Below, one piece after another: positions 6,491-57,297 of a stretch of 64,000 bases of DNA (the stretch's first letter is position 1; every line of letters begins with the position of its first letter). The notes under the pieces are model-generated. The model was not told the DNA's origin. It ran no database searches and saw only the letters and a program-made list of their open reading frames with translations. The stretch lies in NCBI RefSeq assembly GCF_007747995.1, contig NZ_CP036276.1, forward strand, positions 6,066,001-6,130,000, read 5' to 3'. Made by a program: the position numbers and the translations under genes. Source of the stretch: Symmachiella dynata (GTDB lineage: Bacteria; Planctomycetota; Planctomycetia; Planctomycetales; Planctomycetaceae).

Positions 6491-6955
6491 ATGGAAACTG
6501 CGAAACCGCAAGACAACGAATTGTTGGAACACCTGGAATCGTTAGAACGCAGCCTGGACGTGCCGCTCGTTCCAGGGGAATTGGGGCAATGGTTGGAAAC
6601 GGTGCAAAGTGAATTGGAAAGTACAGTGCGTGTATTGCGCACGTGCATTGAGTCCAAACATTCCAAAGAATTCCAACAAATCGGCAGCGAAGACCCGGGA
6701 CTTTTCGGGCGTGTCCGGGAAATGCAACAAACCGATCAAGAAAACCTCCAGCGATCCGCCGTCCTCCTCGCAAAACTGGCCAAACTCAAACCGCTTGCGG
6801 ATGCAGTCGGGGCCGACGAAAAACAGCTCGAGAAACCGATTGAAAATGTCGTCAAGCACGGCTTGGAATTCGTGACGGAAGTCCGCAAGCAAGAAACGGT
6901 AATCGATACTTGGCTGTTGGAAGCGTATGATCGCGATCGTGGTGTCGGCGATTAA
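6491..6955 (+). CDS. Hypothetical helical protein
   Basis: This is a 154-residue, Glu/Leu/Lys-rich soluble protein that I do not recognise. The pattern is all-helical: LLEHLESLERSLDV, LGQWLETVQSELESTV, then VREMQQTDQENLQRSAVLLAKLAKL and a C-terminal helix KHGLEFVTEVRKQETV. This suggests a helical bundle or coiled coil. The ATG at 6491 is chosen because GAGGTG sits 4-5 bases upstream; an ATG at 6473 is possible. It lacks a signal peptide and has no cysteines apart from one near residue 53. It follows the DUF1571 gene by about 100 bases on the same strand and might share its transcript. Confidence 0.6.
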   Translation: METAKPQDNELLEHLESLERSLDVPLVPGELGQWLETVQSELESTVRVLRTCIESKHSKEFQQIGSEDPGLFGRVREMQQTDQENLQRSAVLLAKLAKLKPLADAVGADEKQLEKPIENVVKHGLEFVTEVRKQETVIDTWLLEAYDRDRGVGD

Positions 6956-7476
6956 TTGTCGGCACGATTGGCTCATTCGTAGCCTAAACCGCAGTGCATC
7001 ATGCACCGCCTGCGCTTCGTCACAACTCAAAGATTCCTAATTCGTTTTACCATTCTCGCCTTGCGTAACAACAGGCTGGTGACATCGGTCTGCAATACGC
7101 CCTCTCCCCTTGCGCTCCCACCGGCTTCATCGCAGACCTCGACTTTTTGTTTGGCAGTCTCTCTGCCAGGGGTTAGACGATCTCCTCGTCGTGGCTGGGA
7201 GCGGTGCATTCTCACTTGCGGGTAAACAAGCCGCTCCCACCGTGCGCTGCCATACATAACGCCGCCTCGCCCGTGGATGCCGGTCGACCACATCGTACGC
7301 CGAACGATCAGCCGAACCATCGAATTGGCATGGTTTTGGGGGAATCGGGACTTTAATTCCGTTCGGCATCAATTGTGCAGAATTCATTGGCATCGAACGT
7401 CGCTGAGGGCAAGACGGTGACGAGAATTACCGGCCCACGCGACGGAATTTTAAATGTCTTAGCAATAGGTGAAAAC
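6956..7476. other. Intergenic region, no gene seen
   Basis: This is about 520 bases without a supportable gene. The only structure I find is a 9-bp inverted repeat, TGGGAGCGG at 7196-7204 with CCGCTCCCA at 7231-7239, around a 26-base loop. Open frames on both strands here have no ribosome sites and low-complexity Arg/Pro translations. The promoter of the stress module that starts at 7477 should lie here. Confidence 0.5.
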
Positions 7477-7998
7477 ATGTCGACTTCAATCAACCACGAG
7501 CCGATCCGCGCGGGAATATTTACAACCGTCGAAAACGCAGACCGCGCCGTCACCAAGTTGCTGGACGCCGGTTTTGAAAAAGAAGAAATCACGGTGATCT
7601 GTTCCGATGAAAGCAAGGAACAGCACTTCGGCTCAATGCGCCAAAGCGAGGGAATTTCCAAAACCGACCAACAGGGTGTGGGCAAGTCCGGAGTCATTGG
7701 CGGCGCGCTGGGGGCACTGGTCTCACTGGCCGGTGTGGCAACGACGGGGGGAATGGGAATCGTCGCCGTAGGCCCGATTTTCGCCGGCGGGCTAACGGGA
7801 ACCTTGTTGGGGATTTTTGTGGGAAGTGGCGTCGAGAACGAACTGGCCCGCTTCTACGACCAGGAAGTGACCCAGGGGAATATTCTCGTCGCCGTCGACC
7901 TTCCAGACGACGACCCTCAAAAAGCGGGCCGTCTGAAACAGGCTGGCCAAATACTTGAAGAAAGTGGCGCCTCATCTTTGCCGTTGAGTGAAGGTTGA
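7477..7998 (+). CDS. General stress protein 17M/YflT-like protein
   Basis: This 173-residue protein has an N-terminal YflT/17M-like domain (residues about 7-50: AGIFTTVENADRAVTKLLDAGFEKEEITVIC). A central glycine-rich hydrophobic stretch follows (about 70-128: GVIGGALGALVSLAG, GGMGIVAVGPIFAGGLTGTLLGIFVG) that may form a helical hairpin in the membrane. A C-terminal ferredoxin-like half (NILVAVDLPDDDPQKA) completes it. In Bacillus, proteins with this N-domain belong to the general stress regulon; the biochemical role is not known. The start at 7477 has AGGTGA upstream; the frame is open further up without a better site. It heads a run of plus-strand genes with stress-type domains. Confidence 0.75.
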   Translation: MSTSINHEPIRAGIFTTVENADRAVTKLLDAGFEKEEITVICSDESKEQHFGSMRQSEGISKTDQQGVGKSGVIGGALGALVSLAGVATTGGMGIVAVGPIFAGGLTGTLLGIFVGSGVENELARFYDQEVTQGNILVAVDLPDDDPQKAGRLKQAGQILEESGASSLPLSEG

Positions 7999-14399: not shown

Positions 14400-17300
14400 T
14401 TGAATATGTGGGATCTCTTTGCTGAAAATGCGCCGCCAATGAAAATCAAACCACGGTCCACCTTCGCCAGCTACGGTTTGGCGGTAGTCTTCACAGGACT
14501 GGCCACGGGACTACAACTTCTGGCTCATCCCTATTTTGGTGGTGCTGTCCCATACATTCCCTTTTGTCTAGCGGTTTTTGCTACTGCCTTAATAGCCAAA
14601 GCGGGCCCCACGTTACTTGCTATTCTCTTGAGCGACCTGGCAGTCCTTGCTTGGTTTCTTCCGCCGCCAGATTCGCTTCTTCCGGCCGACACAGCTGGTT
14701 GGCTGGGATTGATGCTCTTCAGTCTCTTCGGAATCTGTGTGGCGATTTTGAGTGACGGAAGAAGACACAAAACGGAGCAATTCCAAGGTGAACGCGAACG
14801 TTTCTTGGCCACGCTCTCGAGCATTGAAGATGGCGTGATCGTCACGGACAGCAACGGGCAGGTCACATTCCTCAACACCGTGGCGGAAGGCATCACAGGC
14901 ACAGGCAACGCTGCTGCACAGGGAAAGCCGCTGGATGTCATTTTTCGCTTGATCAACGAATCATCTCGACAGCCAATTGAGAATCTCGTCGACAGGGCAG
15001 ACAGGGAGGGGCACGATATCGGTCTGTCCGATCAGAGTCTGTTGATCGCGGACGATGGCACGGAAAAAGCGATTGAAGGGACTGTCGCCCCCATCCGCAC
15101 TCAAGTCGGAAAATTTGCTGGGTGCGTGATTGTGTATCGGGACGTGACCGAGCGGCGACGACTGGAACGGGAAGGCGCAACAAGCGTAGAGACCTCCCGG
15201 CTCTTGGCAGCCATCATCACATCTTCAAATGATGCGATCATCAGCAAGTCACTGGATGGCATGATTCAGAGTTGGAACACCGCCGCCGAGCGAATCTTTG
15301 GTTTTACTGCAGAGCAGGCAATCGGTCACCACATTTCCATTTTAATCCCCGCCGAACGAGCCGAAGAAGAAAACCGGATTATTGCCCAATTGCGAAAAGG
15401 GCAGCGTGTCGAGCATTTCGATACGGTACGGCTCAGGAGCGACGGCCAAAGGGTTTTCGTTTCGCTGACAATATCTCCGGTCAGAAATGCAGAAGGGCAA
15501 ATTATCGGGGCCTCTAAGATCGCCAGAGACATCACCAAACAGAAGAAGGCTGAGGAGCGACTGCGAGAAAGCGAAGAACGATTTATCCAGCTGGGGAATG
15601 CCATCCCTCAGATGGCGTGGATGGCCCAGCCGGATGGACACATCGATTGGTATAACGACCGCTGGTACGAATATACCGGCACGACGTTTCAGGAGATGGA
15701 AGGTTGGGGTTGGCAAAGTGTGCCTGCCCCTAACGTGTTGCCAGAAGTCATGCAGCGCTGGCAGAAGGCTTTAGAATCTGGCGAACCGTTTAACATGGTC
15801 TTTCCCTTACGGGGAGCAGATGGCGAGTTCCGGCCGTTTCTCACTCAGGTTCTGCCGTTTCGCAATGGCGAAGGCAAGATCACCCGTTGGTTTGGGACGA
15901 ACACAGACATCAGTGCGATCAAGCGGACCGAAGACGAACTGCGCGAAGCGCGCTCGCGTCTCGAATCCACCTTAGCGGCAGCTGAGATTGGAACCTGGGA
16001 GTTTGACGCGGTCAAGAACACTGTTCGAGCCGACCCCAACCTGGCACGCATGTTTGACGTGAGTCTTGAAGACGAGGCCAGCAATGCGCTTGAAAGTTAT
16101 CTCAAGGCAATCCATCCCGATGATCAGAAACGGGTCACAGAAGGAATCGAACAGGCAATAAAAGCAGGATCAACTTACGAAAACGAATTTCGGATCGTTG
16201 GCAGTGGTAATGAAGTTCGCTGGGTTGTCGCTCGTGGTCGAGTGGAACGTGACAACACCGGGCAGGCGATCCGCCTCCCTGGTGTCGCGATGGATATTTC
16301 AGAGCGCAAGCAGGTTGAAAAAGCACTCCAAGAAAGCAAAGAACAATTTCGCTTAGCACTCGATTCCGCTGAACTTGGCACTTGGAGTGTCAATCCAGCC
16401 ACCTATCATCTCACCTGTGACGAGCGGTTCCGTATCATTTTTCACGGCTGCGCCGATCCCATTACTTACGACCAGGCAATTGCCGCCATCCATCCCGACG
16501 ATCAACAGCGGATCCGCGATGCTGTGGCAAAGGCAATTCGTCCCGATAACCCGGCTCGTTACGCTCAAGAATACCGGATTGTACAACCAAACGGGACCAA
16601 TCGCTGGGTGTTTGCTAAAGGACGTGCAAACTTTGAGCCAACCGACGCGGGGCAGCGACTCGTCAGCTTCGACGGTACATTGATGGACATCACTCAGCAG
16701 CGGAAAATGCAGGAGGAACTCCGTGAGCTTGCGTCCCGTTTGGCCGAAACCGACCGTCGTAAAGATGAGTTTTTGGCGACGTTGGCCCATGAACTTCGTA
16801 ATCCGCTGGCCCCGATTCGTACTGGGCTGGAGATCATGAAGTCCGTGATGGACGACCCCGAAACCATGGAAGACATTCGCTGCACGATGGAACGGCAGAC
16901 GCAGCAGTTGATCATGTTGGTCGACGATCTCCTTGACGTGTCACGTATCAGCAAAGGTAAGCTCAAACTTCGCAAGTGCCGGGTCAAACTGGCCGATGTC
17001 ATCCAGAGTGCGGTCGAAGCTTCGAATTCTTTCATTGACGAGTCCAACCACAAACTGATTACGGACATTCCCTCAGAGCCAATCTACTTGAATGCCGACC
17101 CAAATCGTTTGGCGCAGGTCGTGTCCAATCTGCTCAACAACAGTATCAAATATACTCCCGAAGGCGGACGCATTCGATTGTCCGCAGAGCGGCAAGAAAA
17201 TGATGTCGTTGTTTCGGTTGAGGACAACGGCCTCGGTATTCCTGCCGAGATGCTCGACCGCATTTTCGAGATGTTCGCCCAGATCGACCGTCCACAAGAG

Positions 17301-17870
17301 AAAGGCTACACGGGGCTCGGCATTGGTCTTTCCCTCGTCAAATCACTGGTCGAGTTGCACCAGGGCCAGATCGAAGTTCACAGCGAAGGCATTGGCAAAG
17401 GCAGTCTCTTCAGTGTTCGACTACCTATCCACATCGAAACGCATGCCGAAGAACCAACCTTGTCTCGGATCGACCAGACCGCCACGGAAAGCACCAACCG
17501 AAAAGTGCTGGTCGTGGACGACAACAAAGCAGGTGCGAAGATGTTGAGTATGATCGTTAAAATGCTCGGCAACGACGTCCGCAAGGCCTACGATGGACAA
17601 GAAGGGATTGAAGTCGCCGAAGACTTTCTGCCGGATGTCATCCTGATGGACATTGGTATGCCCAAAATGAACGGCTACGAAGCTGCCCGCTACATACGCC
17701 AACAACCGTGGGGCAATAAGATCATGTTGGTTGCCCTAACGGGGTGGGGTCAGGATGAAGACAAACAGAAAACGAAAGCAGCAGGTTTTGACCACCACTT
17801 GGTCAAACCCGCCGAGCCAGCTGCCATTCAGGAATTGCTTGAAAACGTCAACTCGAATCCCAAACCATGA
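14400..17870 (+). CDS. Hybrid sensor histidine kinase (DUF4118-like, five PAS, HisKA, HATPase, REC)
   Basis: This is a 1156-residue kinase. The N-terminus has three to four membrane helices resembling a DUF4118 sensor (about 22-115). Five PAS/PAC units follow, beginning near residues 134, 263, 397, 519 and 648. The HisKA box has its phospho-acceptor at H797 (LAHELRNPLAP). The ATPase domain shows the N box (NLLNNSIKYTPEGG), G1 (VEDNGLGIP) and G2 (GLGIGLSLVKSLVE). The C-terminal receiver has DD near its start (VLVVDDN) and the phospho-acceptor D1084 (VILMDIGMP), with the usual T/K residues (ALTGWG, VKPAEP). The start is a TTG at 14400 with AGGGGAG 9 bases upstream; an ATG at 14406 is the alternative. 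It has no output regulator beside it, only the small HisKA-like gene downstream. Confidence 0.9.
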   Translation: MNMWDLFAENAPPMKIKPRSTFASYGLAVVFTGLATGLQLLAHPYFGGAVPYIPFCLAVFATALIAKAGPTLLAILLSDLAVLAWFLPPPDSLLPADTAGWLGLMLFSLFGICVAILSDGRRHKTEQFQGERERFLATLSSIEDGVIVTDSNGQVTFLNTVAEGITGTGNAAAQGKPLDVIFRLINESSRQPIENLVDRADREGHDIGLSDQSLLIADDGTEKAIEGTVAPIRTQVGKFAGCVIVYRDVTERRRLEREGATSVETSRLLAAIITSSNDAIISKSLDGMIQSWNTAAERIFGFTAEQAIGHHISILIPAERAEEENRIIAQLRKGQRVEHFDTVRLRSDGQRVFVSLTISPVRNAEGQIIGASKIARDITKQKKAEERLRESEERFIQLGNAIPQMAWMAQPDGHIDWYNDRWYEYTGTTFQEMEGWGWQSVPAPNVLPEVMQRWQKALESGEPFNMVFPLRGADGEFRPFLTQVLPFRNGEGKITRWFGTNTDISAIKRTEDELREARSRLESTLAAAEIGTWEFDAVKNTVRADPNLARMFDVSLEDEASNALESYLKAIHPDDQKRVTEGIEQAIKAGSTYENEFRIVGSGNEVRWVVARGRVERDNTGQAIRLPGVAMDISERKQVEKALQESKEQFRLALDSAELGTWSVNPATYHLTCDERFRIIFHGCADPITYDQAIAAIHPDDQQRIRDAVAKAIRPDNPARYAQEYRIVQPNGTNRWVFAKGRANFEPTDAGQRLVSFDGTLMDITQQRKMQEELRELASRLAETDRRKDEFLATLAHELRNPLAPIRTGLEIMKSVMDDPETMEDIRCTMERQTQQLIMLVDDLLDVSRISKGKLKLRKCRVKLADVIQSAVEASNSFIDESNHKLITDIPSEPIYLNADPNRLAQVVSNLLNNSIKYTPEGGRIRLSAERQENDVVVSVEDNGLGIPAEMLDRIFEMFAQIDRPQEKGYTGLGIGLSLVKSLVELHQGQIEVHSEGIGKGSLFSVRLPIHIETHAEEPTLSRIDQTATESTNRKVLVVDDNKAGAKMLSMIVKMLGNDVRKAYDGQEGIEVAEDFLPDVILMDIGMPKMNGYEAARYIRQQPWGNKIMLVALTGWGQDEDKQKTKAAGFDHHLVKPAEPAAIQELLENVNSNPKP

Positions 17871-17894
17871 AAATATTGCAGCGGAGAGAATTGC

Positions 17895-18140
17895 ATGAGT
17901 TTAGAACAAGATTTGCCACCCTCATCCGATGAAGAACGCCCAGAAACACTTCGGCGACTCGCACACGACATCAAATCCTATCTCGGCGTCGTGACGATGG
18001 GGATGCAAGCCTTGGAATTAGTACGGGAGGACCCCGAAGAATTTGCGGAGATACACAAATCGATTGAGGAGGAGGGAGTTGAACCCTTGAAGGCGATCGT
18101 GGCTCAGATTGTCGATCTTGCTCTTTCGGAAACAGGCTGA
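17895..18140 (+). CDS. Stand-alone HisKA-like small protein
   Basis: This is an 81-residue protein, complete with start (ATG at 17895 after GGAGAG) and stop. Its only clear feature is an H-box-like helix, RRLAHDIKSYLGVVTMGMQAL, with H24 in the place of a phospho-acceptor. A second helix, EPLKAIVAQIVDLAL, follows, so it could form a two-helix dimerisation and phosphotransfer domain. There is no ATPase domain. It begins 24 bases after the hybrid kinase stop and is very probably co-transcribed with it. It may act as a phosphotransfer partner of the kinase receiver domain, or it may be a regulator that dimerises with the kinase. This is inference from the motif. Confidence 0.65.
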   Translation: MSLEQDLPPSSDEERPETLRRLAHDIKSYLGVVTMGMQALELVREDPEEFAEIHKSIEEEGVEPLKAIVAQIVDLALSETG

Positions 18141-18178
18141 TTGCCTGCACAAGCTTATTGTCGACGATCACCGGCGAC

Positions 18179-19369
18179 TTACTCTTCTGGTTGGTCGGTC
18201 GCATGAGGTTGGTTCAGCGCCTCGACTGTTGCGGCTGCGTCCTTTTGGTCATCGGCATCAAGATCAGGTCCCGACTGCGTATTTTCAGCACTGGGTTCAT
18301 AACTCAAGACGACCGACAACGGCAGATGATCTGACCCGATTGTTGGCAATGTCTGTAACGAGACAACGCGAAAATCGTCGGAGTGGAACAAGTGATCCAA
18401 CGGATAACGCCAAATCCACGAATTCGCATTGAACGTCGGATACAGCCCGCGTCCTTTACGCGGATCGAGTAACCCGCTGACCTCTTGAAACAGGTCGGTC
18501 GTGCGTGACCAACCAACGTCGTTCATGTCCCCCAGGACGATTGCGCTCTCACCGTCACCAATTTCTCGCCCAACCAGCACCAATTCACCGTCTCGCTTAG
18601 TCGTATCCTCCCCCGGCCGCGGGGGATTGGGATGGATCACAAACAATCTGACCGGTTGCCCGGACGGGAGTTGGATCGTGGCATCGATCGAAGGGATCGA
18701 TTCCTTAACCATGGCTCGAATCTCAGACGAGACGATTTCGAGGTTCGAATACATGGCGAGACCGTATGTGTTTTCCATCGGTTTTTCGACATGAAATTTA
18801 AATTTTTCGCGCAGCGACACAATCTCATCGATCCAACGTTGGTTCACTTCACAGAGAACAACGAGATCCGGGGACTGCTCGTCAATCAAACGCAGCAGTG
18901 CGGCTGAGTCTTCATTTTCCTGAAGAACGTTTGACATCATGATCCGCAGCCGCACATCCTGGTCTTGCGACTCGGCCCACTCAACTTGATTCGGAGCAAC
19001 GGGCAGATACGGAAAGATCCAGTACAACTGAATGGCGATACTCGCCACCATCAATCCCGCCGCCGGCTTCGCGTAGGGCTGTTTGTACAGCACCCCCAAG
19101 ACCAGCAGCCAAACCAAATACGCGACGAGTAGCTGAACGCGCGGGAAGTCGCCAATCCGAACCCACCACCAATCGACTGGCAAAAGCGGAGCGAATGCTG
19201 TGACGGCCAATATTGCGGAGATAAACAGGACGAAATACATGAGCTTCCAGTTTCGTTTGTATGCAACCACTCCGTCAGTGGCTTTGCCTTCGTCAATAGA
19301 CGGCGTCTGATCACCGTGAGGGGACGTTGTCGAAAATGATTTCGGCTTCACCATCTGCAGAACTCTCAT
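18179..19369 (-). CDS. Membrane-anchored endonuclease/exonuclease/phosphatase family protein
   Basis: This 396-residue protein has three membrane helices (about 38-58, 68-88 and 95-118), then an EEP domain. Recognisable motifs are RIMMSNVLQENEDS, DLVVLCEVNQRW (the metal Glu), RLFVIHPNPPRPGE, AIVLGDMNDVGWS (the GD-N motif) and IGSDHLPLSVVL (the SDH motif). EEP enzymes cleave phosphodiesters in nucleic acids, phosphoinositides or sphingomyelin. The three-helix form is known as a membrane EEP protein of unknown substrate. A second in-frame ATG at 19354 is a possible start. It is convergent with the HisKA-like gene, with only about 38 bases between. Confidence 0.82.
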   Translation of the reverse strand: MRVLQMVKPKSFSTTSPHGDQTPSIDEGKATDGVVAYKRNWKLMYFVLFISAILAVTAFAPLLPVDWWWVRIGDFPRVQLLVAYLVWLLVLGVLYKQPYAKPAAGLMVASIAIQLYWIFPYLPVAPNQVEWAESQDQDVRLRIMMSNVLQENEDSAALLRLIDEQSPDLVVLCEVNQRWIDEIVSLREKFKFHVEKPMENTYGLAMYSNLEIVSSEIRAMVKESIPSIDATIQLPSGQPVRLFVIHPNPPRPGEDTTKRDGELVLVGREIGDGESAIVLGDMNDVGWSRTTDLFQEVSGLLDPRKGRGLYPTFNANSWIWRYPLDHLFHSDDFRVVSLQTLPTIGSDHLPLSVVLSYEPSAENTQSGPDLDADDQKDAAATVEALNQPHATDQPEE

Positions 19370-19728
19370 TCAGGCAAGATTCGCGAACGGCGGTTTCCAT
19401 TTTCCCAATTCGGCAAGGTTTCATGGTTGCCATCCTTTCTCAATATCCATCCCGAGAACAAACAGCAACCCCCATGCCAAACTGCGGGATTATGGCCCGA
19501 CGGTGCCTTACCGCATAGAGTGTGACAAAAATCAATCAGCGCGGTCGACAACTAGACGGAGCAGAGAAGTCCTGGTAAGTACCAATGACACCTAAAAGAA
19601 ACGGCACTAGAACCAGTTTCAAAACCCGGTTGTGCCTGTTCAGGAATCTATAATACAAGAGATTACGTGACGCGTCAGAGGGTTTTGAAATTACTTGTAG
19701 TAATTCATGTGCCCCAGGACCGCAGCGA
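19370..19728. other. Intergenic region carrying repeat family A copy 2
   Basis: This is about 360 bases between the EEP gene (start side) and the PAP2 gene (stop side). Its main content is the repeat element at 19611-19700. No gene is supported. Confidence 0.5.
19611..19700. repeat. Interspersed inverted-repeat element, family A, copy 2
   Basis: The left arm is GTTTCAAAACCC (19616-19627) and the right arm is GGGTTTTGAAA (19680-19690). The interior is shared with copy 1: GGTTGTGCCTGTTC, TAATACAAG and the TGACGCGTCAGAG block. It lies about 30 bases beyond the PAP2 stop codon. Confidence 0.8.
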
Positions 19729-20472
19729 TTAGTCTGGCGTTGGCGATTCTGGTTGGGTCGATTCCACATTGCCGTGGCGTTGTAGATAGGCCGTAACCAT
19801 CCAACACAAGATCGCCCAGCATGCTCCCAACGTCCAACCCGCTAACACATCACTCGGCCAATGCACGCCGAGGTAAACGCGGCTAATGCCCACGCTGATC
19901 GACAGCAGAGCTGCCAGCAGTAGAAAATAAGCTTTGAGCCGTCGCCCGGTATGCACGCGCGCCAACAATGCCCCCAGTGTCAAATAGGTCGTTGCAGCCA
20001 TCATGGCATGACCGCTGGGAAAGCTGGCTGTGAGGACATGGGAACCATGCGGCACCAGATCCGGGCGTGGACGTGCAAACTGCCACTTTAATAAATAGCT
20101 CACAACAAGTCCTCCGACGACAGCAACCAGCACCAGCAGCGCCGCCGAATTGTTCCGCTGCAACAATAAATATCCGACGACGGCCAGAGTAATCAACGTG
20201 AGCACGCCAATGCCCCCCAAGGCCGTTATGTCGCGGACAAGTTCCTCGACCCACTGCGGTCCCCAGGGATCGGAGAGATCGCTTGGGTTACGCAATGAAA
20301 GCAATATGGCACGGTCGACCTGTTTGGTTTCCCCTTCACGAACCTCTTCGGCAAGCTCGACGAACAGCCAAAGTCCCGCGGTCAAGAGCACAAAACCGAC
20401 CAACGTCGAAAGCTCGTGACTTCCCAACCAGAACATAAACCGGCGAAATCCGCACGTGAACCTGTCGTACAT
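19729..20472 (-). CDS. PAP2-family phosphatase
   Basis: This 247-residue membrane protein has the three PAP2 motifs: KWQFARPRPDL, then FPSGHAMMA with the catalytic His, then SRVYLGVHWPSDVLAG. There are about five to six membrane helices. The family dephosphorylates lipid phosphates such as phosphatidic acid or undecaprenyl pyrophosphate, with the active site on the outer face of the membrane. A TTG at 20481 would add three residues but GGAAGGG lies too close to it, so the ATG at 20472 is preferred. A dgkA homologue at 57.3 kb would supply lipid phosphate. The gene appears monocistronic. Confidence 0.88.
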   Translation of the reverse strand: MYDRFTCGFRRFMFWLGSHELSTLVGFVLLTAGLWLFVELAEEVREGETKQVDRAILLSLRNPSDLSDPWGPQWVEELVRDITALGGIGVLTLITLAVVGYLLLQRNNSAALLVLVAVVGGLVVSYLLKWQFARPRPDLVPHGSHVLTASFPSGHAMMAATTYLTLGALLARVHTGRRLKAYFLLLAALLSISVGISRVYLGVHWPSDVLAGWTLGACWAILCWMVTAYLQRHGNVESTQPESPTPD

Positions 20473-20946
20473 CGTTTTCAAACCCTTCCCAAACTCCGCC
20501 TAAACAAATCGCAATATCGTGACGTAACCAGGCTCGCAGCAATGGACGTTCCGAACAGGTCGTTTCATTGCAAGTTCAGCCACAGGCATCAAACAACCAG
20601 AGGGAAACAGCGGCGTTCACAACCTTCAGTCACACCCAAGTTGCATCCGGTCGAGACCACAACAGGCAATTTGCGAGCCAAATCACCGGCAATCGCCACA
20701 AAGCGAAATTTTCGCAGCGAATTAGCAGCACTCCACCAACTGGCAGCCTGCCCTTCAACCAGAATGGTCGACGCGCGATCATCGAGTTCGGGAGCCACAG
20801 CATGACGATGAGTCAGCAAGCGACTCTTGCGATGTATAGCCGCGCGGGCTGATCGGATTTCCACCAAGACTCCGGCGGGGAGCGGATGACAAGCAGCCCA
20901 CCCCAAAGAACGCAATAAGCCCATGCAAGACATGGGCTTATGCAAA
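20473..20946. other. Intergenic region, no gene supported
   Basis: This is about 470 bases between the PAP2 gene and tRNA-Lys. Open frames of 94-129 codons exist on both strands but overlap one another, lack ribosome sites and do not resemble any family I know. It may be a decayed remnant; I see no repeat arms. Confidence 0.45.
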
Positions 20947-49153: not shown

Positions 49154-50140
49154 CTACGATGGCTTGTCACCGGTGCCGAGCAAGCCCAAGACACCCAACG
49201 CATAAAAGGTATATTCCACGTCCGCTTGTTCATCCCAACCGGCGCCGCGAAAACCGCCGGCGGGAAACTCTAGCGCATTGATAAATCGCTCGACGGTGTG
49301 CGGTTTGACCACGTTGTCGATGCCCAAGTCCTGACAAGTCAGCAGTCCGGTAAAGGTCGACAGCGAATCGGAAAACGGGATGCGGGTGTTGGCCTGAAAA
49401 CCTCCCTCGTCGCCGCGGACTTCCCGTAAGAACGCGCGGACATCTTGGTGGAATTCATCATCAAAGGCGTTGTACATCCGCAAGACGGCCACGGCAGCGG
49501 CGGTCGGGTTGGTGCCGCTGCGTTTCATAGGACCGATTTCCACAAACCCGCCATCTTCCCGCTGCCGATCATAGATGAATTGCACCAACCGCTCAGGATG
49601 GGGAATCGTGCGGCCGATCAATTCATAACACAGGGCGATCAAAAACGTATGATAGGTACTCCCGGCAGCCCCTTCATGGGTTTTGGCGTACCCGCCGTCT
49701 TCGGTGCGAAAGCTCTCTAGAAATTCCGCCAAATGCACAGGCCAGTCTGAATCGTGCTCGGCCAGTACGTCGATGCCGGCGGTCGTTTGTACGATCAACG
49801 CGCAGTACAACCAACTGACAATATCGATCACCGACCCGCCAAACGGATCGATGCTTTTCAAATATCCGGCAATCGGCCGGCAGTCGTCAGCAGTGATCGC
49901 CCCCATCACTGCTAGGCTGCGCACCGCAAAGGCGGAGTAATAGAGGTCCGATTCACGGGGAGCGTCCTCGTCACCAGGATCGCGCAGTTCTTCGGGAGCC
50001 TCCCGCCCGCAAAACCCGCCATCGGCGGTTTGCTGCGCCAGAATAAATCGGCGATGCCGAGCGCGCCGCTGCGGATCCAGTCCTGCCAATCCAGCGCTGA
50101 GGCGATTGCCTAGTTCGAGGAGATAAGGTTCCGCGGGCAT
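49154..50140 (-). CDS. Prenyltransferase/squalene-cyclase-fold repeat protein
   Basis: This is a 328-residue alpha/alpha toroid protein with QW-like repeats: QTADGGFCG, EDGGYAKT, EDGGFVEI, DEGGFQAN and PAGGFRGAG. The pattern is closest to protein geranylgeranyltransferase beta subunits. The places where I expect the zinc ligands (D-x-C and the H in DPFHT) read NPT and DVEYT, so it may have no zinc and may not be an active protein prenyltransferase. It lacks the DxDDT of squalene-hopene cyclases. It lies 72 bases downstream of the DUF116/polyprenyl synthetase gene, in the same direction, and could act with it on a polyprenyl substrate. The exact function is unknown. Confidence 0.75.
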   Translation of the reverse strand: MPAEPYLLELGNRLSAGLAGLDPQRRARHRRFILAQQTADGGFCGREAPEELRDPGDEDAPRESDLYYSAFAVRSLAVMGAITADDCRPIAGYLKSIDPFGGSVIDIVSWLYCALIVQTTAGIDVLAEHDSDWPVHLAEFLESFRTEDGGYAKTHEGAAGSTYHTFLIALCYELIGRTIPHPERLVQFIYDRQREDGGFVEIGPMKRSGTNPTAAAVAVLRMYNAFDDEFHQDVRAFLREVRGDEGGFQANTRIPFSDSLSTFTGLLTCQDLGIDNVVKPHTVERFINALEFPAGGFRGAGWDEQADVEYTFYALGVLGLLGTGDKPS

Positions 50141-50212
50141 GGTGGAGAACGGCCGTTTTCAACCAGTTGAAAAACTGGAAATCGCTAGAGGGTCTGCATT
50201 TTCAACGGGCCG

Positions 50213-52075
50213 TTAGGCGCCGACGGTTCCCAGAATCGGCAGGGGAGCGAGGACCGTCGTGGCGGGGGATTGCTGTGTGGACTCTTCGGCGAGAACCGTG
50301 TCGACCATGAAATACAACAATTGCCGCAGCGCATCGGGTTGTACGTCGTCGGCCAGTGCCTCGGCGCGTGCGCGGGATTTTTCGACCAGGGCATGCGCTT
50401 TGTCGAATACGCCGCACTCGTCGTAAATCCGCCGCAAGCGGCCCAAACGAAATCCTCCGTCGCCCTCTCCGGTGAGGATTTCCTCCAGTTCGCTCCGCTG
50501 CTGGGCATCGGCCGCTTCGAGTGCCATGGCCAACAACAACGTCGGTCGTAGCGAGAGGGCGTCTTGACCGGCGATTAGTTTATTATCGTCGTCGCCCTGC
50601 CAGTCCTTCAGGTCGTTGAGAATCTGGAAACCCACCCCCAAGTGCCGGCAAAATGCGGGGATCATTTCGCGGTATTCGTCGATCGCTCCCCCCATCCGCA
50701 GGCCAGCAAATAGCGCTGCCTCGAATGCGGGGGATGTTTTGAGGGCATAGATTTTGAGAGCATCGATCGGCGTGAGATCGATTTCGCCATTGGCTTGCCA
50801 CCGCATCTCGGCGCCTTGGCCGTCGCACAATTTGATATGTGCTTTCGCCATGCTGTCCAACACATCAGCAACCACATCACCCCCCAATTCCGCAGCTCCA
50901 CGGCTCACCAACCGGTAACCCAGGCCGATCAAATAATCGCCCACATTGATCGCCATGCCTGTGCCGTAGCGGCGATGCAATGTCTCTTGGCCATAACGGT
51001 ACAGGTCGTCATCTTCGATGTCATCATGTGCCAATGACGCTTTGTGGAACGCTTCAATCGCAATCGCGCCGCGACGGACTGCGACTGGAATATCGATGTC
51101 ATCTTCGAATCCCGCCGCCAAACCGCTGCTGCCACTCACCGCATCATAGGCAGCCAGTGTGATGAAGGGCCGCAAGCGTTTTCCGCCGTGCGCCAGCCAG
51201 TCGTAGGAGATGGCTTCGGTCGAGGCCAATGGGGAATCGACATCGGTTGAGGCCCCCGTACTGCGAATCGGCGGAACCAACTCGTCGAACTGTTCCTCAA
51301 ACATGCGATTCGAAGCCCGCATCAACGGGATATATCCATTGGTCTGCGGTTCGGGAAGCGGTTCGTATTTTTCCAAACAGTCCCAAATCCACGATTCGTC
51401 CAGCGTGGTGTTTTTGCAATCTCCCGTATGCAGCGGCACCGCATACGAGGGGACGCCGGCGACCAGGACTTTGTCGATCGCCTTTTCCAACACGTTGAGA
51501 CAAGCGACTCCCAAGATACCGTCGACATGGCCCGAGACAATAATCTTCAGGACAATCGGCGACCCTTCAGCAACCAGGACTTTGTACCCCAGTTGCTCGG
51601 CGCGGACTTTATAATCAGCGATCGAGCAGGCGCCGCATTTTTCGCAATCGAGACCGAACTCGTCGTAGTCGGCTGGACAGCCTTCGGCATGTTTCAAACA
51701 GTGCGGCAGCAATAACAAACGGCGGTCGAATGGTAAGGCGAGGAATTGGCGCTTCCAGTAGAAATTGCCAATGAGCACCATGACAAAGCCGAGGAATTTT
51801 TCCGGCTGATTGATCTCTTTGAGCAGCTCGTGGCCGTAAGCTTCCAACTCGCCTTTATTGAACGGCTTGCTTTTGTCGAGACGCTCCACGAAGCGCTCGG
51901 CCTCGTCGCGCATCGATTCTCGCAGTTCGAGCGTTTCTGGAACCGCTTTCAGGTGGCTGGTACTGCGTCGTTTCGCCCGCTTGACCGGCTTTGCCGAGGG
52001 ACTGTTCGTTTCGCTGACCGTCGCAGTGGTCGCACCTTGATCTCGCCCGTGTGATTCGCTGGATGCGATCGTCAA
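50213..52075 (-). CDS. DUF116 domain fused to polyprenyl synthetase
   Basis: This 620-residue protein combines two domains rarely seen together. After a basic leader (about 1-60), residues about 60-240 form a DUF116 domain with a cysteine-rich core: [21 protein letters not shown], then [12 protein letters not shown] and HTGDCKNTT. This suggests a metal or Fe-S site. From about 280 the trans-isoprenyl diphosphate synthase fold begins ([11 protein letters not shown]), with the first Asp-rich motif DDIEDDDL (near 348) and the second as NDLKDWQGD (near 490). The enzyme part should extend allylic diphosphates with IPP. The start is TTG at 52075, with AAGGAGA 5 bases upstream. It begins 21 bases after the cyclase stop, so the two are co-transcribed. 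Confidence 0.87.
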
Positions 52076-52096
52076 GGAATTCTCCTTCTCTGTCGG

Positions 52097-53935
52097 TCAA
52101 TCTGAATGCGAACTATGTAACGGAGTTTTGGTAGGGAACGTCTCGTCGCGAGTCGTCTGGCTATATTTCGCCCGCGCGCAGCCCAGGGCGGCTACGGTGA
52201 AGATTATCGGATATAACCTCTCAAAATACCACAATTTGGCGAAATAAAAACCAATAGGGGTCGTGCGAGCGAACTCATTTCCATCCACACAGCTTACCAG
52301 CCAGCCCACCCCGCGACCAGCGGCAGGGGATATCTCCGTTTCCGCCAATATTGCTTCAACCGCCAGCGCTGTTTCCTCGACACTTGAGGAAATACCGGCA
52401 TTGCCGCCCCAACCCCCGTCGGAATTTTGCACCGATTTTATCCATTTCAGGCCTTGTTGCGCCTGCGGCGAGTCGTAACGCCCAGCCTCGGCGTAGGCTG
52501 CCAAGACCCGTGCCGTGCCGTAGACCGGGTTTTCATCATCCGGTGAAAACTGATTGCCAAACCACAGCGGCAGCCAGGAGCCGTCAGCCCGCTGGACTTT
52601 GCTCAAGTAGGCAAACCCCCGCTGGATGGCCTGAGCGGACCGTGACAACAACGCAGGCTCCGCCTCCGGTTGCCGTGACTTCCAGGCGAGCAATGCCCGA
52701 ATCGCGTGTGCTGTCAAATCCGCGGCGCTGCGGTCGAATGGCAAGGCGCCCCAACCGCGGCAAAACGTGGGCCAGCCGCCGTCGCGATTTTGCAAATCCA
52801 ACAACCAATTGACCGCAGCCGCGAGTGCCTCCGCTTCGTCGGCGGGAATCGTTTCCTCTGTGCGCAATTTGAGTAACGCTAAGATGGCCCCGGGCGTGTC
52901 GTCCGCATCCGGCACGCCGCCCGATAAATCGGTCCACGCCCATCCGCCCGGATCGGCATTGGTGTAGGGATGCACCTCGCGATATTGCTGCTGCAACAGC
53001 CAATCGCGAATTGCTGATTGGTCCTCGACGGAGAGATCGTCTTGCAAAGCGTTCACCGACAACGTCGTGGTCCATGTCGCAAGATTTGTATCGATCGGCC
53101 AACTTCCGTCTGGGCGAACCGAGTCGCGTAAAAACTTCACCCCTTGTCGCACCACCGGATGATCCGTCAACCCGCAGCCCGCCAAACTCATGGTGACGAA
53201 ACTCGTCAGCGGCGCTGCTTCGAGAAATCCGCCGCTGGTCGGTTGGATTTTCTTTAGCAATCGCAGACTCCGCCCAATCGCTGCCTGCCGCAACCAGCGC
53301 AACGGCAGAAACCACGGTTTGCGATGCTGAAACCGGACTTGTCCAATCGCAATCAACGCCGGCAAGGCATAGCTAACGACCGGCAGTCGTATGGTCTTAT
53401 AGAATTGGGGCGGGATGCAGGCCAATTCGAACGGCAGTGCGGAGACCTCGCTCCAATCGACCAAACCGGCCAGGGCGCAGTGCGTCAAAATTGGGACCGA
53501 AAATGTCTTGTCTTTTCCATAACGCGCAATGACCGCTGGGACTCCGCCTGCGGTGTCGATGTAATCGCGAGCAGCGGTTACGGTCGTGGAAAACGTATCT
53601 ACTGTGCCGGTTGCGTGAAACACCGCGTGGGCCAACATCGTGGTCGAAATGTTGCTGAGGCTTTTGACCGTATCGCCCCACCCGCCATCATCGTTTTGGT
53701 GATCCACCAACCACTGCAACCCGCCATCAATCAAATTTTGATCGTCCTGCGTCGCTGGTGTGCTGTGTTGCTGCACCATGTGTAGCGCCATGACCGCTGT
53801 TGCAGTCGAGAGCGCCGACGTCGACAGCTCTCCTTCCCAATGTCCGGCGGCATTGCGTTCGGACAACAGTCTCTCCGCTGCCGTTTGATAACAGCCTTCG
53901 ATGCGTTCGAGAGTCAGGGGGGATTGTGCAAACAC
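52097..53935 (-). CDS. Squalene-hopene-cyclase-like protein
   Basis: This is a 612-residue protein of the squalene/oxidosqualene cyclase family. The acid motif is DADDT (near 343; canonical DxDDT), with several QW motifs (DGGWGD, DGSWPI, DGGWPT, DGSWLP, DGGWGG) and the N-terminal GHWEGEL segment. The length is close to the 630 residues of the hopene synthase. These cyclases fold squalene into pentacyclic hopene at the membrane. No hpnC, hpnD or hpnE gene is visible in the window. Other triterpene or terpenoid cyclisation is possible. The start is taken as GTG at 53935 but has no good ribosome site. It is preceded by a ferredoxin gene. Confidence 0.9.
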
Positions 53936-53955
53936 GGGTGGGCCGCATGCAGACA

Positions 53956-54011
53956 GTAGGGTCCGCTGTGCGGACCGTGCAAGGAATTTCGGTCCGCATA
54001 GCGGACCCTAC
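53956..54011. repeat. Long imperfect hairpin between ferredoxin and cyclase genes
   Basis: Arms of 21 bases (53956-53976 and 53991-54011) with one G-T mismatch surround a 14-base loop. Each arm is itself built from GTCCGC/GCGGAC, so cruciform or paired hairpins are possible. It occupies the whole 82-base gap between the two minus-strand genes. Confidence 0.7.
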
Positions 54012-54017
54012 GACTAC

Positions 54018-55091
54018 TTAAAAATCGAGGTCATCAAGACCGTCAATCAGGTCGTCGAGTTGATCGCGCTTTTGCGGTTGGGAATCTTGACGTTTGGGAA
54101 TGCCGACGGTCATTCCCACCGCATCCCGTCCATCTGCAACCAATTCGGTATCGCGTTCCTGCGCCGCCAACTCCATGGCTGACGGGGCGCCAAACAGTTT
54201 GGAAAGATCGATCTTGAGATTTCCAATGCCCCCTTCTTCCGAACCGGCAATCGCGGGGGTTTTGTGACCGGGAAAGATGATGGCATTCTCGGGGCAAACA
54301 CGACTGCAGGCAGGGCAACCTTTTTTACAGTTGTCCTGTTGTTCGACCAAAATCCGTTCCGCTCCATCGACGCCATACACCCCAAACAGACAGAAGTCGA
54401 TGCACTCCATGCAATTGGTGCAACGGCTGTAGTCGATCACCGGATACCAGCGACGTTTGACCGGACCACCTTCGAGATCAATGGGACGGTGACCATTGCT
54501 GTCAGCGGGGCTGTGCCCATTCCCATTTCCATTGACCGGCTGTCCGTTGCCGTTTTCATTTTTTTGCGGATTCAAGTATTGCTGCATTTGGTCGGGGCGG
54601 GGCGTGCCGCCGATCCAGTCCAGCAACTCAACGGTTTGCACAGCAGCGCTGTTGGCGATCCGCTGGATCTCGCCCAGAAAATCGGCCGCTTGATCCCGGG
54701 CGCGGAGATCGATTGTATAGATTTTTCGGTTGGGAACATCTCGAGCGCCGATGGCATTGGCTGACGGTTGCAATTCTTCCTCGTCGACCTCTTCTTCCTC
54801 CTCGGACTTCAGCTCGCTTTTGCCCTCTTGTCCGCTGATGCCGTTGCGATCCAGAATCCAACGCGAGGCACGGGGGTATAGCCAGGAGAGCACGATCAGA
54901 TCGCCGGGGACCGATTTGAGGAACAGCATGCCGGGATGATCGGTGGTCAGATCATACAAGTGAGGAACCAGCGACACCTCCACTTTGCCGTCGAGCATGA
55001 GTTGCGTGGCGATATCTTCTTCCAAAGCCCGCAGTTGGGGATTTTTGCTTTGAGCCTGGGAGATAACCACCGTAATCCGCTGACCTGCCAT
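54018..55091 (-). CDS. Two-[4Fe-4S] ferredoxin with N-terminal alpha/beta domain
   Basis: This is a 357-residue protein. The N-terminal region (about 1-90) looks like a Rossmann-type fold (RITVVISQAQSKNPQLRALEEDI). Then come an acidic linker (SEEEEEVDEEE), a second alpha/beta part and an NG-rich linker (GNGQPVNGNGNGHSP). The ferredoxin part has two clusters: CTNCMECIDFC (CxxCxxCxxxC) and CKKGCPACSRVC (CxxxCxxCxxxC). The C-terminal tail is acidic (DLIDGLDDLDF). It should transfer low-potential electrons. The start is taken at the ATG at 55091; the frame extends 34 codons upstream. Its neighbours are the cyclase and a lipoyl-domain gene. Confidence 0.87.
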   Translation of the reverse strand: MAGQRITVVISQAQSKNPQLRALEEDIATQLMLDGKVEVSLVPHLYDLTTDHPGMLFLKSVPGDLIVLSWLYPRASRWILDRNGISGQEGKSELKSEEEEEVDEEELQPSANAIGARDVPNRKIYTIDLRARDQAADFLGEIQRIANSAAVQTVELLDWIGGTPRPDQMQQYLNPQKNENGNGQPVNGNGNGHSPADSNGHRPIDLEGGPVKRRWYPVIDYSRCTNCMECIDFCLFGVYGVDGAERILVEQQDNCKKGCPACSRVCPENAIIFPGHKTPAIAGSEEGGIGNLKIDLSKLFGAPSAMELAAQERDTELVADGRDAVGMTVGIPKRQDSQPQKRDQLDDLIDGLDDLDF

Positions 55092-55256
55092 AAGTCGCCG
55101 CCTCTGTCGTAAAAATTCCGCCTGCGGACATCGCAGCCGCCTGCCTCGATTATAAACAACCGTGAGCGTAACCTGTAGCCCGTGGTGCGACAAATGCTGT
55201 TACGGATGTCATTGTCCAAAAAAGAAACCGCATTCCCTGACCAGTTTTGGGGCCGA

Positions 55257-55709
55257 TTAGTCGTTCATTTGCCCCTTGATGATCCGCTGCGTCGCCTCCC
55301 ATCCCGCGTCGAGCAATTCGAGATACTCCGCTGGCGCCAGCGTGGGGGCTTCGGTCGCAAACTCGAATAACCACCCCGCGCCATAATTGTCGGTGTTGAT
55401 CAACGACGGATCATCCAACACCGCATCGTTGAACGCCACGAGACGTCCGTCGGCGGGGGCGTAGAGGGTGGAGAGCGCTTTGGAACTTTCGACCTCACCG
55501 ACTTCTTGCTTTTTGCGAACAGCCGTATCCGCATCGATCGTCCAATCCAAAAAATAAACGTCCTGCAACAGCCGTACGGAATAGGCGGTGAAGCCGACGC
55601 GGTACACCTCACCCTGGGGTTGAAACCACAGGTGGCTTTCCACGTAGTTGCGATCTTGGGGAAACCGAGCTTCGTAGCTTCCCATCATAAAAATCAAATC
55701 ATCGGACAT
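55257..55709 (-). CDS. Stand-alone GcvH-like lipoyl-domain protein
   Basis: This is a 150-residue protein with a GcvH/lipoyl-type barrel. The lipoyl-lysine is K77 in GEVESSKALSTLYAPADG, closely matching the glycine cleavage H-protein segment. Other H-protein features (VGFTAYSVRLLQDVYFLDW, DNYGAGWLFEF) are present. No glycine cleavage P or T gene is nearby; instead it lies 165 bases upstream of a two-cluster ferredoxin and a cyclase. Lipoyl-carrying proteins of this type could act in electron transfer or carrier chemistry outside glycine cleavage. Lipoylation is inferred from the lysine. Confidence 0.85.
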   Translation of the reverse strand: MSDDLIFMMGSYEARFPQDRNYVESHLWFQPQGEVYRVGFTAYSVRLLQDVYFLDWTIDADTAVRKKQEVGEVESSKALSTLYAPADGRLVAFNDAVLDDPSLINTDNYGAGWLFEFATEAPTLAPAEYLELLDAGWEATQRIIKGQMND

Positions 55710-55763
55710 GCATGTTCGCCGTGCGGAGTGGAGGATCGAATTGCGGATTGCGTACGGGGATGG

Positions 55764-57128
55764 TTAGCTGGGATTATCGACGTTCGGAGCGATCTCTTCA
55801 ACGTCGACCATAAAATTCGCAGCCGGTTCTCGAAGCGGAAGAATCCAAAACACCGTCAAAGCACGTCCCACAAACGAAATGAGAAACAACAATTGATAAG
55901 GATCCGCCGTGAATTCCCATCCCATCGCAAGAGTTCCCTGCTCTGCCAATCTGGCGAACAGAAATCCACCCAGAATTCCGCTCACACCGGCAATCAACCC
56001 CGCTACATGCCGGAACAGTGCGATGTTGGCGGCATTGTCGCTACGCGGCGAAAGTTTGAGCATCAAATTGGGCGCTGCGATATTCACCGCTCCCCATCCG
56101 CCCCACATCACATAGGCTCCAAAAACCCACCACCACTGCGCGATCCCCGCTAGACAGAAAAACAGCATCGCCGCAGCCGTTGCCAGCACGCCCAGGATCA
56201 GGGCCGTCTTGTTGCCAAACCGGTCGGCGACGATTCCCGTCTTCCAAGAAATCGGAATTTGCACCAACTTCATCACGCTGGAGAGCAGATAATAGGTGCC
56301 GAGCGAAATCGCCAACGGTCCATACAAAAATTTGAAGATCACCACCTGCGTCAGCCCGGACCAAAAGGCCAACCACCAACTATAAAAACATAGCCGACGA
56401 AACGGCTGATCCGCGAGCGCCCGGCCAATTCCCTTTAGCGTCACCGATCCGCCCGTGAAGCCCCGACGCTGGTACTCCAAGTCCGCTGAGGATTCCCGTA
56501 TGGGAATCGACCGGATGTGGAGCATGGGCCATAGCGACGCCAAGAGCAATCCGATGCCGAGGAGCATGGTCCCCATCAACGCCCACAGGGCTTGTTGATC
56601 GGAATAACTACTGCGCCAATATCCACGCGCATAACCAGCGGCGACCGGTACGACCAACAACACCACTAAGGTCGCAATTTGCCGCAACGCAAAAAACCGT
56701 CCCCAGCGACGACCGGGTACTAAATCGGACAACCACGAAAAGTAAGCGACGAATGCAACCGCCTGTGCCGCTTGAGCAATGGCCAAACAGCCGATCATAA
56801 TCCAGACAGGATCAATGCCAGCCGGCCTGAGCGTGGGGATGGCCAGCAAGGGAATTCCACACAGCGCCCCGCGCGAAATCAATGAACAGACAAACCACGT
56901 CCGTTTACGGTCACCCAACCAACGGATAATCGGCCGCCCAGCGAGCGCCATGATGCCAACCGTTTCGGGCGTTGCCATCAGCACTGATAAAATAAATGGG
57001 CTGGCATTTAATTCCGAGGCGAAGTAGCTCAAAAACCCGCCCGAAGTCAGCGCATTGCCGGCCGTCCACAACATCGAATTCCACAGCACCGCGCGAGTAA
57101 CGGCATCGAGGTGGTCGCTGGGCTTCAC
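55764..57128 (-). CDS. MFS transporter
   Basis: This is a protein of about 454 residues with around 12 membrane helices and the MFS motif-A-like loop (SDLVPGRRWGRFFALRQ) after helix 4. A second version follows helix 8 (GIVADRFGNKTALILG). The substrate is unknown. The start is taken as GTG at 57128 because GGAG lies 6-7 bases upstream; the frame is open to an ATG at 57239, adding 37 residues without transporter character. It is the first gene of the minus-strand cluster with the lipoyl, ferredoxin and cyclase genes, 54 bases before the lipoyl gene, so it could export a product of that locus. That link is a guess. Confidence 0.82.
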   Translation of the reverse strand: MKPSDHLDAVTRAVLWNSMLWTAGNALTSGGFLSYFASELNASPFILSVLMATPETVGIMALAGRPIIRWLGDRKRTWFVCSLISRGALCGIPLLAIPTLRPAGIDPVWIMIGCLAIAQAAQAVAFVAYFSWLSDLVPGRRWGRFFALRQIATLVVLLVVPVAAGYARGYWRSSYSDQQALWALMGTMLLGIGLLLASLWPMLHIRSIPIRESSADLEYQRRGFTGGSVTLKGIGRALADQPFRRLCFYSWWLAFWSGLTQVVIFKFLYGPLAISLGTYYLLSSVMKLVQIPISWKTGIVADRFGNKTALILGVLATAAAMLFFCLAGIAQWWWVFGAYVMWGGWGAVNIAAPNLMLKLSPRSDNAANIALFRHVAGLIAGVSGILGGFLFARLAEQGTLAMGWEFTADPYQLLFLISFVGRALTVFWILPLREPAANFMVDVEEIAPNVDNPS

Positions 57129-57297
57129 GAGGCGCTCCGTTGGCCGTATTGCGAACTTAGAAAGAAGAAGATCGGCAGTAATGCCACACCGATCATACCA
57201 CGTTGTGTCGCAAATTGCAGAGACGCTGCCTTGTGACATGGTGAATAATCATGGTCAATTTCACCCAACAGGTTGTCACGGATTATTCACGAATCTC

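Follow-up and report, generated by a model that had tools for sequence, protein, structure and literature searches.

A conserved set of about nine genes around a DUF116-polyprenyl synthase fusion in planctomycetes, acidobacteria and verrucomicrobia: a candidate pathway for a cyclised polyprenyl lipid

The window analysed here comprises 64,000 nucleotides of the 7.77 Mb chromosome of the planctomycete Symmachiella dynata (NZ_CP036276.1, positions 6066001-6130000). Its minus strand carries five neighbouring genes that form the core of a conserved unit: GCVH, a lipoyl carrier of the GcvH family (55257-55709; PF01597 (GCV_H), 5.9e-23); FDX, a two-cluster ferredoxin with an additional N-terminal domain (54018-55091; Fer4 models); a class II terpene cyclase resembling squalene-hopene cyclase (SHC; 52097-53935; PF13243/PF13249); a fusion of DUF116 with a polyprenyl diphosphate synthase (50213-52075; PF01976 at 1.7e-37 and PF00348 at 2.2e-40 in one open reading frame, ORF); and PT, a single alpha-alpha toroid protein of the prenyltransferase fold (49154-50140; PF00432 (Prenyltrans), 6.6e-16). 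Together with partners encoded beside them in other lineages, these genes make up a set of about nine, larger than the six recognised by a first-pass annotation of the window, and their joint function is strongly supported. All six adjacent minus-strand ORFs reported by that annotation were found, Pfam supports each of the family names it had given (MFS_1, GCV_H, SQHop_cyclase, DUF116 with polyprenyl_synt, and Prenyltrans among them), and the spacings of 21 and 72 bases between SHC, fusion and PT were measured as claimed. FDX and SHC are 82 bases apart, and GCVH and FDX 165. For FDX we prefer the ATG at 55091, the mechanical ORF beginning at a TTG at 55193; the fusion has a TTG start after AGAAGGAG and comprises 620 residues. 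The FDX-SHC gap holds an inverted repeat (53956-54011) with 22-nt arms that are 95% complementary and 12 nt apart, a unit with two matches in the window, both of them there, against 0.01 expected; it may divide transcripts.

The terpenoid enzymes of the unit keep the motifs needed to assign them to families. The cyclase matches SQHop_cyclase_C (6e-40, 137.7 bits) and SQHop_cyclase_N (2e-27, 96.3 bits; gathering threshold 26), and in sequence the closest protein of solved structure is squalene-hopene cyclase (1gsz, E 1.2e-18). The aspartates of its DxDDT motif (D343, D345 and D346) occur in 73 of 73 aligned sequences and T347 in 99%; it also keeps a D-x-T-A-H motif and the tyrosine of a Y-G-T motif, and we assume from inspection by eye that this histidine and this tyrosine correspond to the catalytic ones of squalene-hopene cyclase. 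Matches to 7xq4 and 8zg1, which we take to be bacterial class II cyclases of the drimenyl diphosphate synthase type acting on a prenyl diphosphate, were weaker than that to squalene-hopene cyclase (E 3e-9 and 4e-9). In the fusion, which holds the sole DUF116 of this genome, seven cysteines of the DUF116 half are present in 99-100% of 103 aligned sequences. The first DDxxD motif of the synthase half reads DDI(E)D, with aspartates invariant in 102 sequences, and all 102 have alanine and serine at positions -5 and -4 of this motif, where the nearest solved relative, the geranylgeranyl diphosphate synthase 1wy0, has tyrosine at -5. Synthases with no bulky residue at these positions usually make products longer than C20, and on this rule the predicted product of the synthase half should exceed C20. 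A structural model of the fusion showed an alpha/beta domain of modest confidence followed by a more confident synthase domain, and all 50 matches listed by a fold search were either prenyl synthases or prenyltransferases that share the synthase fold. The best NCBIfam match of the synthase half was the family 2 encapsulin cargo polyprenyl transferase, at 124 bits against a cut-off of 450. For PT, a search of the PDB gave a weak match to the beta subunit of geranylgeranyltransferase II (E 0.006); D258, D307, E309 and Y310 are conserved in 99-100% of 71 aligned sequences, and of the residues that presumably correspond, by eye, to the zinc ligands of farnesyltransferase beta (Asp, Cys, His), the aspartate is kept while the cysteine and histidine are replaced by leucine and tyrosine.

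GCVH is a paralogue of the genuine GcvH. It scores 80 bits against the TIGR00527 cut-off of 115.85 for the glycine-cleavage GcvH, and another gene of the same genome passes that model at 142.5 bits. The lipoyl lysine K77 is present in all 86 aligned sequences, that of the window included; the window protein has no cysteine, and none is found among the GCVH columns conserved at 90%. FDX matches Fer4_6 above its cut-off and the dicluster models below theirs, and all 115 aligned sequences have its eight cluster cysteines. Elsewhere among the lineages the unit additionally includes a CobW-type GTPase, a radical S-adenosylmethionine (SAM) enzyme (rSAM), a four-cysteine protein here labelled HdrN and, often, a cysteine desulfurase. 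rSAM carries the core motif CX3CX2C (C57, C61 and C64, each in 99-100% of 79 aligned sequences) and, equally conserved, an auxiliary motif CX13GX4C (C268, G282, C287) with a further cysteine, C328. Since CX9-15GX4C is the auxiliary-cluster motif of twitch/SPASM radical SAM enzymes and the three-cysteine pattern is that of the twitch type, rSAM is probably a twitch-type enzyme; its best solved relative by profile is SkfB, an enzyme that makes C-S bonds. The CobW-type GTPase carries GGCFCC, and the desulfurase matches PF00266 (9e-81 in L097) with its catalytic C331 present in 26 of 27 sequences. The four-cysteine pattern of HdrN appears to resemble that of the N-terminal domain of HdrA. A profile search of the PDB with HdrN gave a single, unrelated match (E 0.6), and a fold search placed HdrA (7bkd_A) at rank 25 (E 0.07) amid generic Rossmann-like folds; neither search shows HdrN to be the HdrA N-terminal domain. 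Between HdrN and the N-terminal domain of the window FDX there is a weak similarity (hhalign probability 14.8, E 0.0018), and in L110 the four-cysteine HdrN is fused to the ferredoxin. For these counts, the GCVH, SHC, DUF116/synthase and PT alignments kept sequences of at least 0.75 times the median length, and the FDX, rSAM, CobW and desulfurase alignments those between 0.75 and 1.6 times the median.

Some loci without the usual rSAM have a substitute radical SAM gene of about 510 codons after FDX (mechanical ORF ends 13650-15176 in L079, 7948-9483 in L100, 1062-2927 in L110 and 1694-3295 in L132). It follows FDX and directly precedes the fusion in genomes G079 and G145, stands after FDX and before SHC and fusion in G029, and lies between FDX and DUF116 in the verrucomicrobial L132. 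The presence of a substitute at this place speaks for a radical step being required. A B12-binding domain was considered for the substitute protein and rejected, as Pfam matched the radical SAM domain only. Other radical SAM genes were seen at the margins of the unit: a HemN-like gene alone adjoins GCVH in L075 (17376-18746), L076 (16341-17843) and L077 (18201-19511), and upstream of the unit in the acidobacterial L118 (243-4833) a HemN-like radical SAM gene is accompanied by genes for a Trp-halogenase/GGR-like flavoprotein, a 4HBT thioesterase and an AMP-ligase.

The recurrence of these genes was followed in 134 loci, 128 of them distinct. The first 54 are selected planctomycete stretches (L061-L114), of which 48 contain the fusion, two the synthase part only and four a standalone DUF116; several reach contig ends, and the fusion-locus stretches span at most 20 kb. 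The other 80 (L115-L194) are the best of at least 401 relatives recovered by scanning genomes with the FDX alignment; six are repeats (five of L061-L114 loci, and L146 of L145), which leaves 74 that were counted. No family profile drew on more than 60 sequences, and these came from the loci themselves. Many of the 54 planctomycete stretches show the order GCVH-FDX-SHC-fusion-(PT), and the usual order in deeper branches is GCVH-CobW-HdrN-FDX-rSAM-fusion-PT-SHC. All eight of these main families occur in one stretch in 13 of the 54 planctomycete loci and in 25 of the 74 FDX-found loci from Planctomycetota, Verrucomicrobiota and Acidobacteriota. Within the 48 planctomycete fusion loci the partners are SHC (41), FDX (37), GCVH (32), PT (26), rSAM (21) and CobW (18); the 74 FDX-found loci contain HdrN (65), rSAM (55), CobW (52), fusion (48), GCVH (47), PT (40), SHC (29) and the desulfurase (20). 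The desulfurase, found in 27 of the 134 loci, adjoins SHC or GCVH in either orientation in 24 of them, the others being L090, L101 and L184. As a control, the four standalone-DUF116 loci (L106-L109) have no partner genes apart from one SHC match in L107, which is 23% identical and the lowest-scoring cyclase of all; because of this score and of an HpnH gene present in L107, it is probably a hopanoid cyclase. The grouping is more than chance, since this combination of genes comes back in many taxonomic families and in three phyla.

The conserved co-location that had been expected for six families thus extends far beyond the genus for five of them and fails for the sixth, the MFS transporter (55764-57239, minus strand; PF07690 (MFS_1), 2e-23), which lies 54 bases from GCVH. 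It belongs outside the conserved unit, as no match to it was found in the 134 loci. The same holds for the MOSC, diacylglycerol kinase, SpoU methylase and IleRS genes that flank the core, the sole exception being an IleRS-type match of 23% identity in L074.

By their record titles, the best 80 FDX relatives belong to Planctomycetota, Verrucomicrobia and Acidobacteria, with one metagenome-assembled genome of Hydrogenedentota and a few others whose different labels are unconfirmed. In Planctomycetales bacterium ZRK34 (L161), whose genome is complete, a single run contains all eight families. Members are scattered elsewhere: the cultured Brevifollis gellanilyticus (L192) has rSAM, HdrN and FDX at the locus and fusion and cyclase at other sites, and the window genome itself encodes rSAM at 7036025-7037212 and the CobW-type protein at 3541393-3542487. 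Searches covering 20 of the 26 FDX-found loci without the fusion recovered a full-length fusion elsewhere in 18 of the 20 genomes. A cluster-type cyclase was recovered with the L150 cyclase as query in 15 of 18 genomes, representing 19 of the 46 FDX-found loci without SHC; L150, which was also included, found itself only. Among 40 relatives of the window genome, 32 have the fusion; rSAM accompanies it in 31 of the 32 and occurs in one of the eight genomes that lack it, and for CobW the counts are 30 of 32 and none of eight, so that the absence of either gene follows that of the fusion (Fisher 3e-6 and 6e-7, respectively, uncorrected for kinship). In 199 planctomycete genomes the fusion, scored as a DUF116 match in a frame of at least 480 amino acids without a check of the synthase half in each case, occurs in 47; these 47 include all 41 genomes that match rSAM strongly and 46 of the 49 that have FDX, again uncorrected for kinship. 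In twelve genomes the rSAM matches were weaker throughout (E 6e-76 to 2e-63); they were attributed to another family and not counted. One of the relatives, G017, has two fusion genes (contigs C69 and C196), and the divergent copy, 39% identical, has radical SAM and CobW genes of its own nearby. The deep planctomycete locus L096 shares 56-75% identity with the acidobacterial loci L118 and L120 in all seven families compared, against 28-50% in the same families with the planctomycete locus L111. The unit has thus probably been transferred between phyla in its entirety, though an ancient split of the planctomycete versions would also explain these values; both fit a self-contained pathway.

Our reading, to which we assign a probability of about 50%, is that the unit makes a cyclised polyprenyl lipid longer than C20 and that a radical SAM step takes part. 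The synthase half of the fusion would make an all-trans polyprenyl diphosphate of more than C20, whose far end the SHC-like enzyme would protonate through its DxDDT motif, leading to ring closure. The single-toroid PT could then bind the cyclised chain or hand the chain to an acceptor, and the twitch-type rSAM would functionalise a C-H or C=C bond. FDX, the HdrN protein or domain, the cysteine domain of DUF116 and the lipoylated GCVH may relay electrons, and possibly sulfur, to the rSAM step, with the desulfurase and the CobW-type GTPase providing sulfur or iron-sulfur clusters and a metal. The computation itself establishes the gene families, their linkage and co-occurrence, the conserved catalytic motifs and the independence from hopanoid genes; the product, its chain length, the order of the steps, the roles of radical enzyme and carriers and the nature of the relay are what we infer. 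The first-pass annotation had suggested that these genes serve an isoprenoid pathway, not yet described, that includes a redox step. Conservation of five of the neighbours clearly favours the idea of a pathway, but the radical SAM step would be its central chemistry instead, because the set includes radical SAM, CobW-type GTPase, HdrN and desulfurase genes. Going further, one might picture a lipid assembly line shared by three phyla, on which the lipoylated carrier presents sulfur or the prenyl chain itself to rSAM, yielding a terpenoid lipid new to chemistry that bears a radical-derived modification and possibly sulfur; we regard this whole picture as doubtful.

The cyclase family with its DxDDT motif also raises the question of a hopanoid-type route, in which the SHC-like enzyme would cyclise squalene and rSAM would act like HpnH, and in L061, from the genus of the window, hpnH (6881-7993) indeed lies tail to tail with PT. 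The radical SAM protein of L061 proved to be HpnH and not a member of the rSAM family, and it was removed before the genome searches. The unit is separate from the hopanoid genes: the SHC-like cyclase scores 136.4 bits against the squalene-hopene cyclase cut-off of 431 (TIGR01507), and the rSAM of L096 36.6 bits against the HpnH cut-off of 225 (TIGR03470), whereas the window genome encodes another cyclase of the canonical, hopanoid type at 2413113-2414168 and its sole HpnH match at 6191754. HpnH is missing from six of the 40 relatives; two of these (G007 and G012) are incomplete drafts, but the other four (G026, G029, G035 and G039) are at least 97% complete and have the fusion, and all eight relatives without the fusion carry HpnH. 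As a hopanoid-type route would, moreover, need no dedicated polyprenyl synthase, we consider it quite unlikely.

A role in making or cyclising the prenyl tail of menaquinone is suggested by two loci, L170 with chorismate-binding, MenD-like, MenB-like and UbiA-like genes directly after the unit (15634-20680) and L176 with a MenD relative 3 kb downstream of it (15841-17331), and by a GGR-like flavoprotein gene upstream of the unit in L086, L087, L118 and L136 (L173 and L164, being the same DNA as L086 and L087, show it too). Relatives of men genes are, however, near the unit in only these two of the 134 loci, both from Verrucomicrobiota, and other polyprenyl synthases are present in the window genome and in relatives (L170 and L176 not being covered), which makes this role unlikely. 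Unlikely as well, to our judgement, is that PT uses the dihydrolipoyl arm of GCVH, another thiol or a cysteine of some protein as acceptor for the chain, cyclised or not, so that desulfurase and rSAM would yield a sulfur lipid. The Pfam family of PT is that of the beta subunits of protein prenyltransferases, and the conserved lipoyl lysine of GCVH, the catalytic cysteine of the desulfurase and the relationship of rSAM to a C-S bond-forming enzyme would all suit such tethered chemistry; on the other hand, the zinc ligands known from farnesyltransferase beta appear by eye to be replaced in PT, and the desulfurase may serve iron-sulfur clusters only. Finally, the rearrangements and unlinked copies might mean that there is no joint function and that shared ancestry or expression keeps the neighbours together. 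This is most improbable given conservation across phyla despite rearranged order, the concordant absences, the recovery of missing members at other sites in most of the genomes searched, and the substitute radical SAM gene within the unit.

Several points weigh against the cyclised-lipid pathway that we favour. The unit is known from genes alone, the predicted chain length depends on two residues, and the role of HdrN as an electron carrier is a guess because no clear relative was found in the PDB by sequence or fold. In the lineage of the window, rSAM and CobW lie apart from the core, and a single transcript of the core is not assured because of the inverted repeat between FDX and SHC. The desulfurase was seen in only 27 of the 134 loci, and four of the 48 fusion loci (L074, L099, L101 and L113) have neither SHC, PT, FDX nor GCVH in the stretch. 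Among the 199 genomes, G125 has the fusion but neither FDX nor rSAM, a further five (G074, G079, G145, G152 and G182; with G125, 6 of 47) have the fusion without the usual rSAM, and G049, G113 and G136 have FDX without the fusion. Two of the 20 genomes searched for the fusion and three of the 18 searched for a cluster-type SHC (those of L141, L153 and L154) gave no match, their completeness not being stated.

The unit shares with the hopanoid (hpn) pathway a class II cyclase with DxDDT and a radical SAM enzyme acting in the pathway, and differs from it in its dedicated polyprenyl synthase, lipoyl protein and ferredoxin. In the sesquarterpenoid (sporulenol/tetraprenyl-curcumene) pathway of Bacillus an SHC-family cyclase is likewise supplied by a long-chain prenyl synthase, as would be the case here, and we know of no radical SAM, lipoyl or iron-sulfur set belonging to that pathway. 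A GcvH-like lipoyl protein encoded with iron-sulfur electron carriers and working outside glycine cleavage is described for sHdr-LbpA sulfur oxidation (PMC6067878). Like GCVH, LbpA has a strictly conserved lipoyl lysine, but the two conserved cysteines near its N and C termini are absent from the window protein, so GCVH is not an LbpA; no hdr genes were recognised among the conserved neighbours, where no family search for them was made. The DUF116-polyprenyl synthase fusion was noted by Makarova et al. 2015, with Psta_0175 of Pirellula staleyi as an example (PMC5898192); for the DUF116 family that article reports at least six conserved cysteines and proposes a flavodoxin-like fold and electron transfer, and where it deals with the fusion it mentions neither a cyclase nor a radical SAM enzyme, a GTPase or any pathway. 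A description of such a cluster was not found in the openly licensed PMC literature, judged by titles and abstract openings, which is no proof of absence, and the excerpt of PMC12078418 considered here does not mention one. As far as these sources extend, the gene set is thus undescribed, while the fusion itself is not new (PMC5898192).

A set of about nine genes that extends from planctomycetes to acidobacteria and verrucomicrobia points to an important, overlooked lipid. Genetic tools exist for some planctomycetes. If our reading is correct, the product would be a new terpenoid membrane component or cofactor, DUF116 would gain a setting, and lipoyl proteins would gain a role beside oxo-acid and glycine metabolism and sulfur oxidation; the lipid itself would be a candidate biomarker beside the hopanoids.

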